From NCBI GenBank assembly GCA_947476295.1, contig CANJQC010000011.1, positions 1-64,000 of the forward strand: a DNA stretch of 64,000 bases, given 5' to 3'. The translations under genes were made by a program, and so were the position numbers. This document shows positions 49,535 to 54,240 of the stretch, piece by piece (position 1 is the first letter of the stretch; each line of letters starts with the position of its first letter). The notes beneath the pieces were generated by a model. It had not been told where the DNA came from, made no database searches, and saw nothing but the letters and a program-made list of their open reading frames with translations. The DNA comes from Planctomycetaceae bacterium. Lineage in GTDB: Bacteria > Planctomycetota > Planctomycetia > Planctomycetales > Planctomycetaceae.

Positions 49535-51415
49535 GTGAACAGGCAGGGTGAGGTGCGGAGCGTGTGGACTCGTCAGATTCCGTTTCGGGTGGATATTGCC
49601 GGCGTGATTGAGATCATGGGATCCTCGCTGTACAGTCGGGTGGATACGCCGATTCGGGAACTGATTCAGAATGCCCATGACGCAGTTATGCGGCGCCGCA
49701 GTCGAGATCTGTCATTCCGCGGGCGAATTGACATTCACCAGAATGCGGCCGATGGAACTCTAACGTTCACCGATGACGGGATCGGCCTGAATGCTGATGA
49801 GGCTGAGCGGTTTCTCGGGACGCTGGGGATCGGAATTACCGGGTGGCTCAAAGGCTGCGGCAGTGATGATCAACGCGAGGCGATTAACGGCGATGGTGAC
49901 CACCTGATAGGTCAGTTCGGTATCGGACTTTTTAGTGCCTTTATGCTGGCTGATCGCCTCGTCGTGGAAAGTCGTCGCGAGGACTGGGCCGAAGGGATCC
50001 GTTGGGAAGCCGGGCCGGGGACGAGTATCCAGTTGTCGTCCAGTGATCGCACAGAAGTCGGCACGTCGGTTCGTCTGTATCTGAAACCTCAGTTTCGCAT
50101 CATGTCTGAAGCGACAGAACCGCTTGAGGCTGCAATCCGGGAATACGCAGATTTTCTCACCGTGCCCATTCATTTGAACGGCAGCGCGGCGCGGGTGAAT
50201 GTGATTCATGTGGCGTGGTTTGAACCGACCCCGGATCCTGAATCGCTGGAATTGGAACTCGCGAATTACTTCAATGAATCGCCGCTGGATGTGATACCGA
50301 TCCGAGTCGAAAATCCAGCATCGATCGCCGGAGCGTTGTATATCTCGCCTCAGCGAACACCGGGCTTTGCCGATGAGTCAACTGTCGCTGTGACTGTGCG
50401 ACGAATGGTAATTTCGCGGCGCGTGCGCGATTTGCTGCCGCCATGGGCCACGTTCCTGCGGGGCGTGCTTGAACTGGAAGATTGTTCACCGACCGCCAGC
50501 CGGGAAGATCTGGTGCGCGACGATCGCTTTCAGATTGTGCGTTCGACGCTGAATGAATTCCTCTTTATGCATCTGGAGAAGATGGCGGACGAAGAACCTT
50601 CGCGGCTGGAAGCGATTGTGAACTGGCATCGCTACCTGTTGGCCGGAGCGGCATTGGCGGAACCTCGCCTGCGTGAGCTGCTGGCGAAGGTGTATCACTT
50701 CCGGACGTCGCGGGGGGCACTGCTGTTTGATGAGCTGCTGCAGAAGAGCATGGCCGATGCACTGCACGAATCGAATGTTGAGTTTGTCATTTGGTACAAC
50801 GCTGATCGACGTCAGGAACGATATCTGGATGATGTGTTTGCGTCGAATCCTGTACCTTGCGTGCATGCGTTTCGCAGTTTTGAAGAAAACCTGCTGGCGG
50901 CGATGATTTCCGATCATCCGGAACGAGAAATTGATCTCCGCCCCGCAACACCGTCGTCAGCGAACTTTGCCGATTCTGTAATGGGTATGAATGAGGTGGA
51001 AGATATGCCAGCCACCTGGGCAGACTTTTTTCGTACTGCGAAGGCTCGAGTGATGATGGCGTCGTTTGACAAGAGTCTGCCGGTCGTCGCATTCCTCAAT
51101 GAACGCTACGAACTCGCGCAGACGTTTGAAGATCTTCGCCGTGACGGTGACATTCCCAAGGGCTTTCAACGTCTGATTGATGCGCATTTTCGCAAGGCAC
51201 CCACTGGAAAGAATGAGGTGATCCTCAATCGTGAACATCGACTTGTGCAGCGGGCGTTAAGTCAGGGAATGCGTAGTCCGCTGGCCAGCGTACTGCGTTT
51301 GCTTGTGACGAATGCTCTGAATTCAGCCGGCGCCGGACGCGGGAAAGAAGCGGCGGATGTGCAGATGGAGGATTTGGACTGGATAGCCGATGCATTGTGG
51401 GGGAATGACCAATGA
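49535..51415 (+). CDS. Hsp90/HtpG-like GHKL ATPase
   Basis: GHKL motifs RELIQNAHDAV, TFTDDGIGLN, HLIGQFGIGLFSAFMLAD; middle-domain LPPWATFLRGVLELEDCSPTASREDLVRDD; 626 aa. Confidence 0.9.
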   Translation: MNRQGEVRSVWTRQIPFRVDIAGVIEIMGSSLYSRVDTPIRELIQNAHDAVMRRRSRDLSFRGRIDIHQNAADGTLTFTDDGIGLNADEAERFLGTLGIGITGWLKGCGSDDQREAINGDGDHLIGQFGIGLFSAFMLADRLVVESRREDWAEGIRWEAGPGTSIQLSSSDRTEVGTSVRLYLKPQFRIMSEATEPLEAAIREYADFLTVPIHLNGSAARVNVIHVAWFEPTPDPESLELELANYFNESPLDVIPIRVENPASIAGALYISPQRTPGFADESTVAVTVRRMVISRRVRDLLPPWATFLRGVLELEDCSPTASREDLVRDDRFQIVRSTLNEFLFMHLEKMADEEPSRLEAIVNWHRYLLAGAALAEPRLRELLAKVYHFRTSRGALLFDELLQKSMADALHESNVEFVIWYNADRRQERYLDDVFASNPVPCVHAFRSFEENLLAAMISDHPEREIDLRPATPSSANFADSVMGMNEVEDMPATWADFFRTAKARVMMASFDKSLPVVAFLNERYELAQTFEDLRRDGDIPKGFQRLIDAHFRKAPTGKNEVILNREHRLVQRALSQGMRSPLASVLRLLVTNALNSAGAGRGKEAADVQMEDLDWIADALWGNDQ

Positions 51416-51510
51416 CCAAATTCCAATGACCAGTGAATCCCAAATTGCAGGCTGCACCTAAGATTCTTTGGTCATTTGGAACTGAACATTGGGATTTAGG
51501 AGTTTTGATC
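51401..51510. repeat. Imperfect inverted repeat with TGACCAA/TTGGTCA units
   Basis: AATGACCAATGACCAAATTCCAATGACCAGTGAATCCCAAATT ... TTTGGTCATTTGGAACTGAACATTGGGATTT; overlaps the stop of the Hsp90-like gene. Confidence 0.7.
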
Positions 51511-54135
51511 ATGGCATCCAGTGACGAATCACAAATCGATCAGCAACTGCAGGATCTTCAGGAACGTGCGGGAGAGCTGATTCCAAAATGTCAGTTTTCC
51601 AGTTCTTCCCGACTTTATGGAGAGCTGCGGCGGCGCGGTCGTACTGAGCATCGCGCTCATGCGTATGTGATGGGCACGTTTTTTCAGATGGATCAGGCAC
51701 AGTATCTGTTCGAGTTCCAGACGATGCGTGAGCGCGCCGTGGAGCTGATCGCGATTCTGGAAAACGAGGAACGGGCGCGGCAGATTCAATCAGATTTTTC
51801 GCGAGAACAATACGACTACCTTGTGTATTCGATGAGTTCCTGTGCATATGAAAATCTGGCGGAGGCCACCGGTCAACTAGAAGGATACAATTCCGACGGA
51901 ATGCACGCCTGCATCACGGATGGAATCCAGATCTGTCGCCGCACGGGAAAGATTGGCTGTGTCAGCTGTTTTCGTGAATATGCCTGTGATGTGTATCTGG
52001 CTGCAGATGACGCCGACATTGCGGGGCATCAATGCCGGTTGGTGATGGAGCAGCAAGGCGTGTGGTCTGATCGCGGTGACCGTCGTTGGCTGGCGACCAG
52101 TAAACTGGCATGGCTGGCAGCATTGCACGGACGCTTTGACGAAGCACTGACCACGATGGATCTCGCTCTGGAATATGCTCAGGCGGAAGCCGTGTCGCTC
52201 AAATTTGAATCACGAATTCGCACGCTGATGGCGCGAGACACGATTCGTCTGGCGGCTGGATTGCCATCGATTATCGAAGGGGATCCGGAATTCGTTCAAA
52301 TGCCGTCTGCAGAAGAATGTCCGGTCTTTGAACATGCACTGGACTTGAATGCAGCGTTGCGAGCGGTGCAAAACGAAAACTGGGTTGAAGCGTCACGATT
52401 GTTGAGTCACTGGGATCAGCGACTTCAGAAATGCAACGGCACGCACCTGTGGTTCGAAACGCGGTTACGGCTGATCGCAGTCAAGCGGATGTCGGGACAA
52501 CAGAAACAGGCGGAATCGCTGGCACGGCAGCTGGAACAGCGCGCGCGTTCGGCAAACGATTATCTGACTCTGCGACGGCTGCAGTTGTTACTGGATTCCG
52601 ATGCGCCGTCACCGCTGGCAATTGCGGCTGAACCGCATCGTGCGGGAGTGTCCGATACGCATGCGGCAGTTGCCGTAATACCGCCACTCAGCGTTGATGA
52701 AGGCAAAATGTCTCCAGAAGAACCTGGTCAGGTAGTGACGCCCTTGTCAAAACTGATCGAATCATTCCGCCTGCGAATGAACGATCTGATGCAGGAACCG
52801 ACGCAGGAGAAATTTGATGGCATCCGGACTGATATTCTGGCCATTGGTGCGGATGAGGCGACACATCAGGAAGACGCCTGCGGGTTGCTGCATCTGATGG
52901 GATATCTGGTCGGAGCTGGTGAAGACGGAGAAGATGTCTGGAGATGGGCCAACGCCCTAGCCGCACCGCACCGCAGCAACGCCGTCGCTCTCTCGGTGCT
53001 GGGAGTGCTCGGTGATGCCCTGCGAGGCTGTCCCAATGAAGCACTTGCGGAAAAAATAACAACGGAACGGACCGAGCAGTTGTTTCGTAAGTCTCTGGAA
53101 CTGGACACCACAAAGCCGCGTAACTTTCTGCGGGCGGGTGATCATTTTGCGGCTGAGGACAATCAGGGCGAGGCCGAACGCTGCTTCGCCAGGGCATTTC
53201 GCCTAGATCGAGTTGATGGCAACATCGTGCGGCGACTGGCAGATCTCTATTCAATCACGGAACGCCCACGCGACGCATTGCATGTACTGGATGTGAGTCT
53301 GCGCGAAGGCAGTAATGACTCTCAGGTCGCGTTTGACGCAGCAATGCTTGCGTTCAGGTTGAAGCAGTACGATGCCACGCTGACGTACCTCGAAAAATTT
53401 GAACAACTTGCCGGTCCAAATGTGTGGACGAACTATTATAGAGGTGTCTGTCACTACGAACAGGGCGATTTTCAACTCTGCCTCGAGTGCCTTGATCTGG
53501 AGGAAATTCTTGCGGAGAACACCGGCTGGCATCTGGAACTGATGCGGGCGGTAACCAAGGCTCGACTGGGCGACTTGTCCGGAGCTCAGTCACATCTGAC
53601 GACTTCGATGGAAACGCCCTTGTTCGAGGTGGACTTCCTTTCCCCATCGGGGATTGCAGAGTTGCTACAGCGTCTGTGTGTGGTGGCCGAAGAAGTCTTG
53701 GAGGATGAGGCTCTGGTTGCAAGAGTGGAAATTCGGTTGCTGCGATCGGGCTTGATGCCGGATTCATGGTTCCAGTGGCAACGTGAATCCACCGAACTGA
53801 AAACGAGGGAAAACGTCCGGCTTTATCGATGTCTGGTGCATCAGCCGCTGGATGAAACATGGAACGAGGATCCGGAACGACTGAGCGGGCAGGAAAACTG
53901 GACAACGTATATCACCGAATGGGGCGTGCTTGCGGAATCGGAAGACGCCGCTCGAGAAATCGCGATTCATTCTCAGGCTATGTGTTATCAATTGCCGGCA
54001 CTGGTGCCGGAAATTCTGGAGAGCGAAGACACTTACGTGGACGTCCCAGGAGCCGTCTGGCAATCGGGGCGTTTCGAGTTGACGGATGAATACCCAGATG
54101 ACGATCTATCCGATGCTGAAAGTGATTTTGACTAA
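51511..54135 (+). CDS. Large TPR-repeat protein adjacent to the Hsp90-like gene
   Basis: 874 aa from ATG at 51511; helical repeats, e.g. PRNFLRAGDHFAAEDNQGEAERCFARAFRLDRVDGNIVRRLADLYSITERPRDALHVLDVSLRE; acidic C-terminus DDDLSDAESDFD. Confidence 0.8.
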   Translation: MASSDESQIDQQLQDLQERAGELIPKCQFSSSSRLYGELRRRGRTEHRAHAYVMGTFFQMDQAQYLFEFQTMRERAVELIAILENEERARQIQSDFSREQYDYLVYSMSSCAYENLAEATGQLEGYNSDGMHACITDGIQICRRTGKIGCVSCFREYACDVYLAADDADIAGHQCRLVMEQQGVWSDRGDRRWLATSKLAWLAALHGRFDEALTTMDLALEYAQAEAVSLKFESRIRTLMARDTIRLAAGLPSIIEGDPEFVQMPSAEECPVFEHALDLNAALRAVQNENWVEASRLLSHWDQRLQKCNGTHLWFETRLRLIAVKRMSGQQKQAESLARQLEQRARSANDYLTLRRLQLLLDSDAPSPLAIAAEPHRAGVSDTHAAVAVIPPLSVDEGKMSPEEPGQVVTPLSKLIESFRLRMNDLMQEPTQEKFDGIRTDILAIGADEATHQEDACGLLHLMGYLVGAGEDGEDVWRWANALAAPHRSNAVALSVLGVLGDALRGCPNEALAEKITTERTEQLFRKSLELDTTKPRNFLRAGDHFAAEDNQGEAERCFARAFRLDRVDGNIVRRLADLYSITERPRDALHVLDVSLREGSNDSQVAFDAAMLAFRLKQYDATLTYLEKFEQLAGPNVWTNYYRGVCHYEQGDFQLCLECLDLEEILAENTGWHLELMRAVTKARLGDLSGAQSHLTTSMETPLFEVDFLSPSGIAELLQRLCVVAEEVLEDEALVARVEIRLLRSGLMPDSWFQWQRESTELKTRENVRLYRCLVHQPLDETWNEDPERLSGQENWTTYITEWGVLAESEDAAREIAIHSQAMCYQLPALVPEILESEDTYVDVPGAVWQSGRFELTDEYPDDDLSDAESDFD

Positions 54136-54240
54136 TTTTGGCTATCGTTGTTGCGGGCTCTTGCGATACGGAGGGGGCAATCGGCCCCCGCTGTTTGCTA
54201 TGTAAAGTCTGAGTTGACACATTTGACCAACGAGTCACAT

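Follow-up and report, generated by a model that had tools for sequence, protein, structure and literature searches.

The window analysed here (the whole 64,000-nt stretch, positions 1 to 64,000 of contig CANJQC010000011.1, forward strand, assembly GCA_947476295.1 of a Planctomycetaceae bacterium) carries a gene for an Hsp90 family ATPase and, after a spacer of 95 bp between its stop codon and the next ATG, a gene on the same strand for a giant tetratricopeptide repeat (TPR) protein. An initial annotation had read the two as an Hsp90/HtpG-like chaperone with a TPR co-chaperone, and a check of the open reading frames (ORFs) reproduced its coordinates, strand, 95-bp gap and quoted C-termini. The Hsp90 ORF opens with a GTG codon and, as conservation sets in only about 10 residues later, the true start may lie slightly downstream. 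The features of the two genes are as follows:

49535..51415, + strand: divergent (non-HtpG) bacterial Hsp90 family ATPase, 626 amino acids (aa) (profile matches, tree, model, fold match, catalytic residues)
51347..51406, + strand: codons of the conserved C-terminal helix of Hsp90, ADVQMEDLDWIADALWG, residues 605-624 (conservation, model, alignment with E. coli HtpG)
51511..54135, + strand: giant TPR partner, 874 aa, ATG at 51511 (ORF, profile, model, TPR fold matches)
51751..52005, + strand: conservation peak in solenoid 1 of the TPR protein, residues 81-165, with R90, Y101, G125-x-NS and CRxTGKxxCxxCFREYA
53164..53310, + strand: Arg-rich conservation peak in solenoid 2, residues 552-600, GEAERCFARAFRLDR...PRDALxVLDLxLREG, a candidate binding groove
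53803..54063, + strand: C-terminal alpha/beta domain of the TPR protein, residues 765-851, with the conserved motifs W..Y...WGVLA and PGxVWQ (conservation, model)

A second, divergent Hsp90 and its TPR neighbour

The Hsp90 ORF shows the complete domain plan of the family, with an N-terminal GHKL ATPase domain (residues ~12-215), a middle domain (~220-500) and a C-terminal dimerisation domain (~500-621), and scores above the cut-off of the Pfam HSP90 profile. The equivalents of E34, N38, D80, G84, G121, F123 and G126 (E. coli HtpG numbering, L123) are all kept, as is the catalytic Arg of the middle domain (E. coli R336), located within SRED. All three domains are present in the AlphaFold model (predicted local distance difference test score, pLDDT, 79.6), and its fold can be matched from end to end with those of TRAP1 and HtpG (E-value 2e-29). 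Concerning its place within the family, the protein reaches 187 bits with the HtpG model NF003555, below the curated cut-off of 371, and the canonical HtpG of the same genome is a separate gene (G000:C23) scoring 655 bits with that model. Its best NCBIfam match is NF010683 ("HSP90 family protein") with 276.6 bits, and since the cut-off is 455 it does not belong to that family as curated. In a tree of 89 rows, covering the N-terminal and middle domains, canonical HtpG makes up 59 rows and the remaining 30 form a divergent clade with a support of 100/100. The latter includes the Streptomyces, Listeria and Paenibacillus members of NF010683, proteins of P. aeruginosa and Xanthomonas, and the clade of the window Hsp90, which sits on its own long stem near but outside NF010683. 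The window protein is a second, divergent bacterial Hsp90 and not HtpG, so that of the initial "Hsp90/HtpG-like" label the Hsp90 assignment holds, while "HtpG-like" is misleading given the separate HtpG gene. HTPG sequences have been divided into groups A, B and C, and S. coelicolor has two copies in different groups (Chen et al., 2006, PMC1525184); the Streptomyces relatives alone suggest that the window Hsp90 may belong to Group C.

The conserved DLDWIAEALWG stretch sits in the last helix (604-621), whose counterpart in an alignment with E. coli HtpG is the final dimerisation helix. Being part of this helix, it was rejected as an EEVD-like docking tail, and as only about five residues follow, the protein has no such tail, in agreement with the absence of MEEVD pointed out earlier.

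The TPR protein consists of a first solenoid (4-362), a disordered linker (377-406), a second solenoid (413-760), the alpha/beta domain (765-851) and an acidic disordered tail (860-874). The model is confident (pLDDT 89.6, predicted template modelling score 0.85) and contains about 38 helices across both solenoids; its best PDB folds are TPR proteins. Additionally, the protein scores above the Pfam TPR_2 cut-off and its profile matches consensus TPRs (E-value 9e-18), so its description as an 874-aa TPR-rich protein proved accurate. Conservation, measured across 34 orthologues, peaks in the two solenoid segments listed above. The alpha/beta domain has no Pfam match. Concerning the acidic tail, which the initial annotation had singled out, it is real in the window protein, but roughly one orthologue in three has a short tail or none, and it was discarded as a conserved interface on that account.

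Joint occurrence of the two genes among planctomycetes

The class sample comprised 296 genomes, metagenome-assembled genomes (MAGs) included. With a threshold of E 1e-60, the Hsp90 query hits 24 of them; two (G407 and G492) were dropped as weak matches falling in another clade of the tree, leaving 22 Hsp90-bearing genomes. The TPR protein is found in 21 of these 22 and in none of the other 274 (Fisher p = 3e-31, a value which ignores kinship and, because the sampled genomes are related, overstates independence). In the sole Hsp90-bearing genome without it (G403), a contig end truncates the Hsp90 gene. In a phylum sample, all seven genomes with a strong Hsp90 match carry the TPR protein as well. 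Placed on a DnaE species tree of 59 family members and two outgroups, presence and absence of the pair changed at least five times, and all five independent contrasts (5/5) are joint. Moreover, across 12 genomes the Hsp90 and TPR distances remain correlated once the DnaE distance is removed (partial r 0.37, permutation p 0.003).

Gene order, on the other hand, is fluid. The two genes are adjacent in the window genome, in G168, G121, G342, G358, G378, G417, G363, G437 and G509 and in three MAGs (L040, L041, L042), whereas in at least six genomes (e.g., G371, G449, G138 and G195) they are unlinked, lying on other contigs or far apart; in one complete genome (G024) 285 kb separate them. Adjacency changed at least three times among the pair carriers on the DnaE tree. 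It is co-occurrence and not adjacency that is conserved, and conservation of the gene pair in related genomes, which the initial annotation had proposed as a check, fails as strict gene order but stands as joint presence. At the unlinked loci no neighbouring gene besides the pair is widely shared.

Four genomes (G437, G363, G509 and G455) have one Hsp90 gene and two TPR copies, and in two of them the TPR gene is duplicated in tandem downstream of the single Hsp90 gene (L094 in G437; L100 and L108 in G363). In G449 (L146, 3729-8683, - strand) an Hsp90 of the window clade is encoded about 110 bp downstream, on the same strand, of a 979-aa DUF3731 Hsp70 ("DnaK-related"). The same Hsp70 is found at most 5 kb from the Hsp90 gene in G512, and the copy of the window genome is located elsewhere (G000:C169). 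As a fixed third member of the system it was ruled out, being missing from several pair-bearing genomes and found in pair-less ones.

Divergent Hsp90s and helical neighbours in other bacteria

A TPR or helical protein encoded on the same strand also follows the divergent Hsp90 in P. aeruginosa (764 aa), Xanthomonas (774 aa), Streptomyces (>1000 aa), Listeria (324 aa) and Paenibacillus (353 aa, with the start touching the Hsp90 stop), as well as in the planctomycetes G207, G049, G046 and G182. TPR neighbours were called by Pfam (E up to 0.01), a method insensitive for TPRs. Among the matches listed, they occur at at least 8 of the 21 divergent loci outside the window clade and at one of the 59 HtpG loci (p = 5e-5); were three HtpG neighbours TPR proteins, the contrast would still give p = 7e-4.

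Compared with canonical HtpG, the window Hsp90 has the same fold and the same conserved catalytic Glu, Asn, Asp and Arg, but it is set apart by this rarity of TPR neighbours at HtpG loci and by its place in a separate clade, the stem of which measures 1.48 changes per column. With the NF010683/PRK14083 proteins (Streptomyces, Listeria, Paenibacillus and some planctomycetes) it shares the deep non-HtpG clade, the domain plan and, as the next gene downstream, one for a large helical or TPR protein; it differs in having its own clade, a score below the cut-off and a TPR partner that is not detectably homologous. Profile comparison showed that the NF010683 partners form one family of their own and, more generally, that for most TPR partners in other Hsp90 clades no homology to the window TPR protein is detectable. 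The partnership thus looks recurrent and not like one inherited gene pair, and a single homologous TPR partner for all divergent Hsp90s finds no support. The closest parallel in layout is offered by P. aeruginosa and Xanthomonas, where the two-gene arrangement, the protein sizes (764-774 aa for the TPR protein) and the broad clade agree with the window, although the Hsp90s form a separate subclade and the TPR partners are weakly similar (hhalign 59%, ~154 columns). In PAO1 the pair presumably corresponds to PA1068 and PA1069. The open-access literature yielded no account of a bacterial Hsp90-TPR pair, PA1068/PA1069 included, subscription papers and preprints being outside that scope.

The helical family downstream of NF010683-clade Hsp90s has starts and stops that often touch or overlap those of the Hsp90 gene and carries the motifs LLWxYKW, DCxACE and CxExPH. 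It spans Bacillota, Actinomycetota and Planctomycetota, and no description of it was found. Its loci are:

L117: 9843-12944
L119: 9797-10771
L120: 9791-10849
L127: 4715-5797
L129: 3667-4764
L130: 3535-4668

A homologue of the P. aeruginosa TPR partner (29.5%) occurs in Nonomuraea (L121, 6001-8268) with no Hsp90 gene alongside. On the Pseudanabaena plasmid ABRG53a (L114, 7261-12843), a divergent Hsp90 bears a C-terminal extension weakly matching the CAP12/Pycsar TIR domain; it adjoins a TIR-domain gene, a TPR gene is nearby, and the locus may be a defence locus.

Proposed function of the pair

The near-perfect co-occurrence across unlinked positions and the repeated Hsp90-TPR coupling in other phyla strongly support a dedicated pair, and a second bacterial Hsp90 acting with a large TPR co-chaperone or client-adaptor is probably the best explanation of the locus. 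Under this explanation, the Hsp90 dimer would run the usual ATP-driven clamp cycle, and the TPR protein would bind it directly, probably via the two conserved solenoid patches, delivering a narrow set of clients or tuning the ATPase. The intact Hsp90 fold with its catalytic residues, the TPR architecture, the joint presence and absence of the two genes and their coupling are observations; the physical binding, the direction of regulation and the clients are inferred. The contact would use no MEEVD tail. The dedicated two-protein chaperone system of the initial annotation is in this sense well backed by the genomic evidence, but not the interface it proposed, as the acidic tail is variable and disordered and the Hsp90 C-terminus is an ordinary dimerisation helix.

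In bacteria, no obligate Hsp90 co-chaperones have been identified, and two divergent clades of bacterial Hsp90 paralogues were excluded from the analysis in which this was stated (Press et al., 2013, PMC3708813). The window TPR protein is a good candidate for such a dedicated helper, which bacteria are thought to lack. Like the eukaryotic co-chaperones Hop/Sti1, FKBP52, PP5 and AIP, it is paired with an Hsp90 and combines TPRs with an extra domain; unlike in those systems, its Hsp90 has no MEEVD tail and its solenoid is much longer, and the resemblance is one of analogy, not homology. A wider proposal, for which we see the chances as evenly balanced, is that bacteria do have dedicated Hsp90 co-chaperones, the whole non-HtpG clade working with clade-specific TPR or helical partners, and that the Hsp90-TPR partnership arose independently of, or before, the eukaryotic MEEVD system with a different interface.

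Several observations weigh against a dedicated co-chaperone pair. The carboxylate-clamp pattern K-N-N-K-R is not evident among the conserved TPR residues, which instead include an Arg-rich patch (541-600). One genome (G005), the sole exception to co-occurrence, has a distant relative of the TPR protein (L143, 3974-7027) with canonical HtpG only. The five tree contrasts taken alone reach p = 0.06 in a sign test, the lowest value that five can give. Finally, as the partners of other clades mostly show no detectable homology to the window TPR protein, convergence may explain the wider pattern, or the frequency of TPR genes may account for part of it.

The main rival, which we regard as unlikely, makes the TPR protein the single obligate client of the Hsp90, a large solenoid scaffold whose folding depends on a chaperone of its own and which itself does the cell's work. 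An obligate client would yield the same one-to-one co-occurrence, the conserved alpha/beta domain of the TPR protein is compatible with it, and one Hsp90 gene with two TPR copies is what would be expected if the scaffolds were the output. However, the proteins coupled to divergent Hsp90s elsewhere are different TPR or helical proteins and not diverse types of client, which fits an adaptor better. It is rather improbable that the two proteins share a pathway, e.g., in the envelope or stress physiology of some planctomycetes, without contact: non-interacting members of a pathway also co-occur and co-locate, and the Hsp90 gene of G449, whose neighbour is the DUF3731 Hsp70 gene and not the TPR gene, favours this view, but no third gene consistently co-occurs or co-locates with the pair and the Hsp90-TPR coupling recurs in other phyla. 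That an accessory Hsp90 merely lies by chance or history beside an unrelated TPR gene is barely credible, since even if large bacterial genomes commonly encode TPR proteins and many orthologues have not kept the gene order, the joint occurrence of genes unlinked in many genomes and the five joint contrasts on the species tree stand against it.

The window pair and the similar pairs of P. aeruginosa, Listeria and Streptomyces are named candidates in a neglected part of the Hsp90 family. If a dedicated co-chaperone does bind the window Hsp90, cooperation between Hsp90 and TPR proteins would not be a eukaryotic invention tied to MEEVD, and the pair would offer a simple two-protein bacterial system for mechanistic work.

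Regarding the origin of the locus, a PADLOC scan for anti-phage defence returned nothing past generic GHKL similarity, on which ground a defence reading was ruled out, and a plasmid origin is unsupported, every plasmid match being below 60% identity. Two noncoding features accompany the genes:

51416..51510, no strand assigned: spacer with an imperfect inverted repeat and no T-run; a sequence resembling a ribosome-binding site, TTTAGGAG, precedes the ATG at 51511
54173..54189, + strand: G+C-rich terminator-like hairpin just past the TPR gene; the count of such sites is not above that in shuffled sequences

The inverted repeat of the spacer is long (51409-51500), and one other site of the genome (G000:C5) gives a 90% match to its first 40 bases. 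It was rejected as a terminator, as the T-run is absent and the folding energy is ordinary. The downstream hairpin would fit a two-gene operon ending there.

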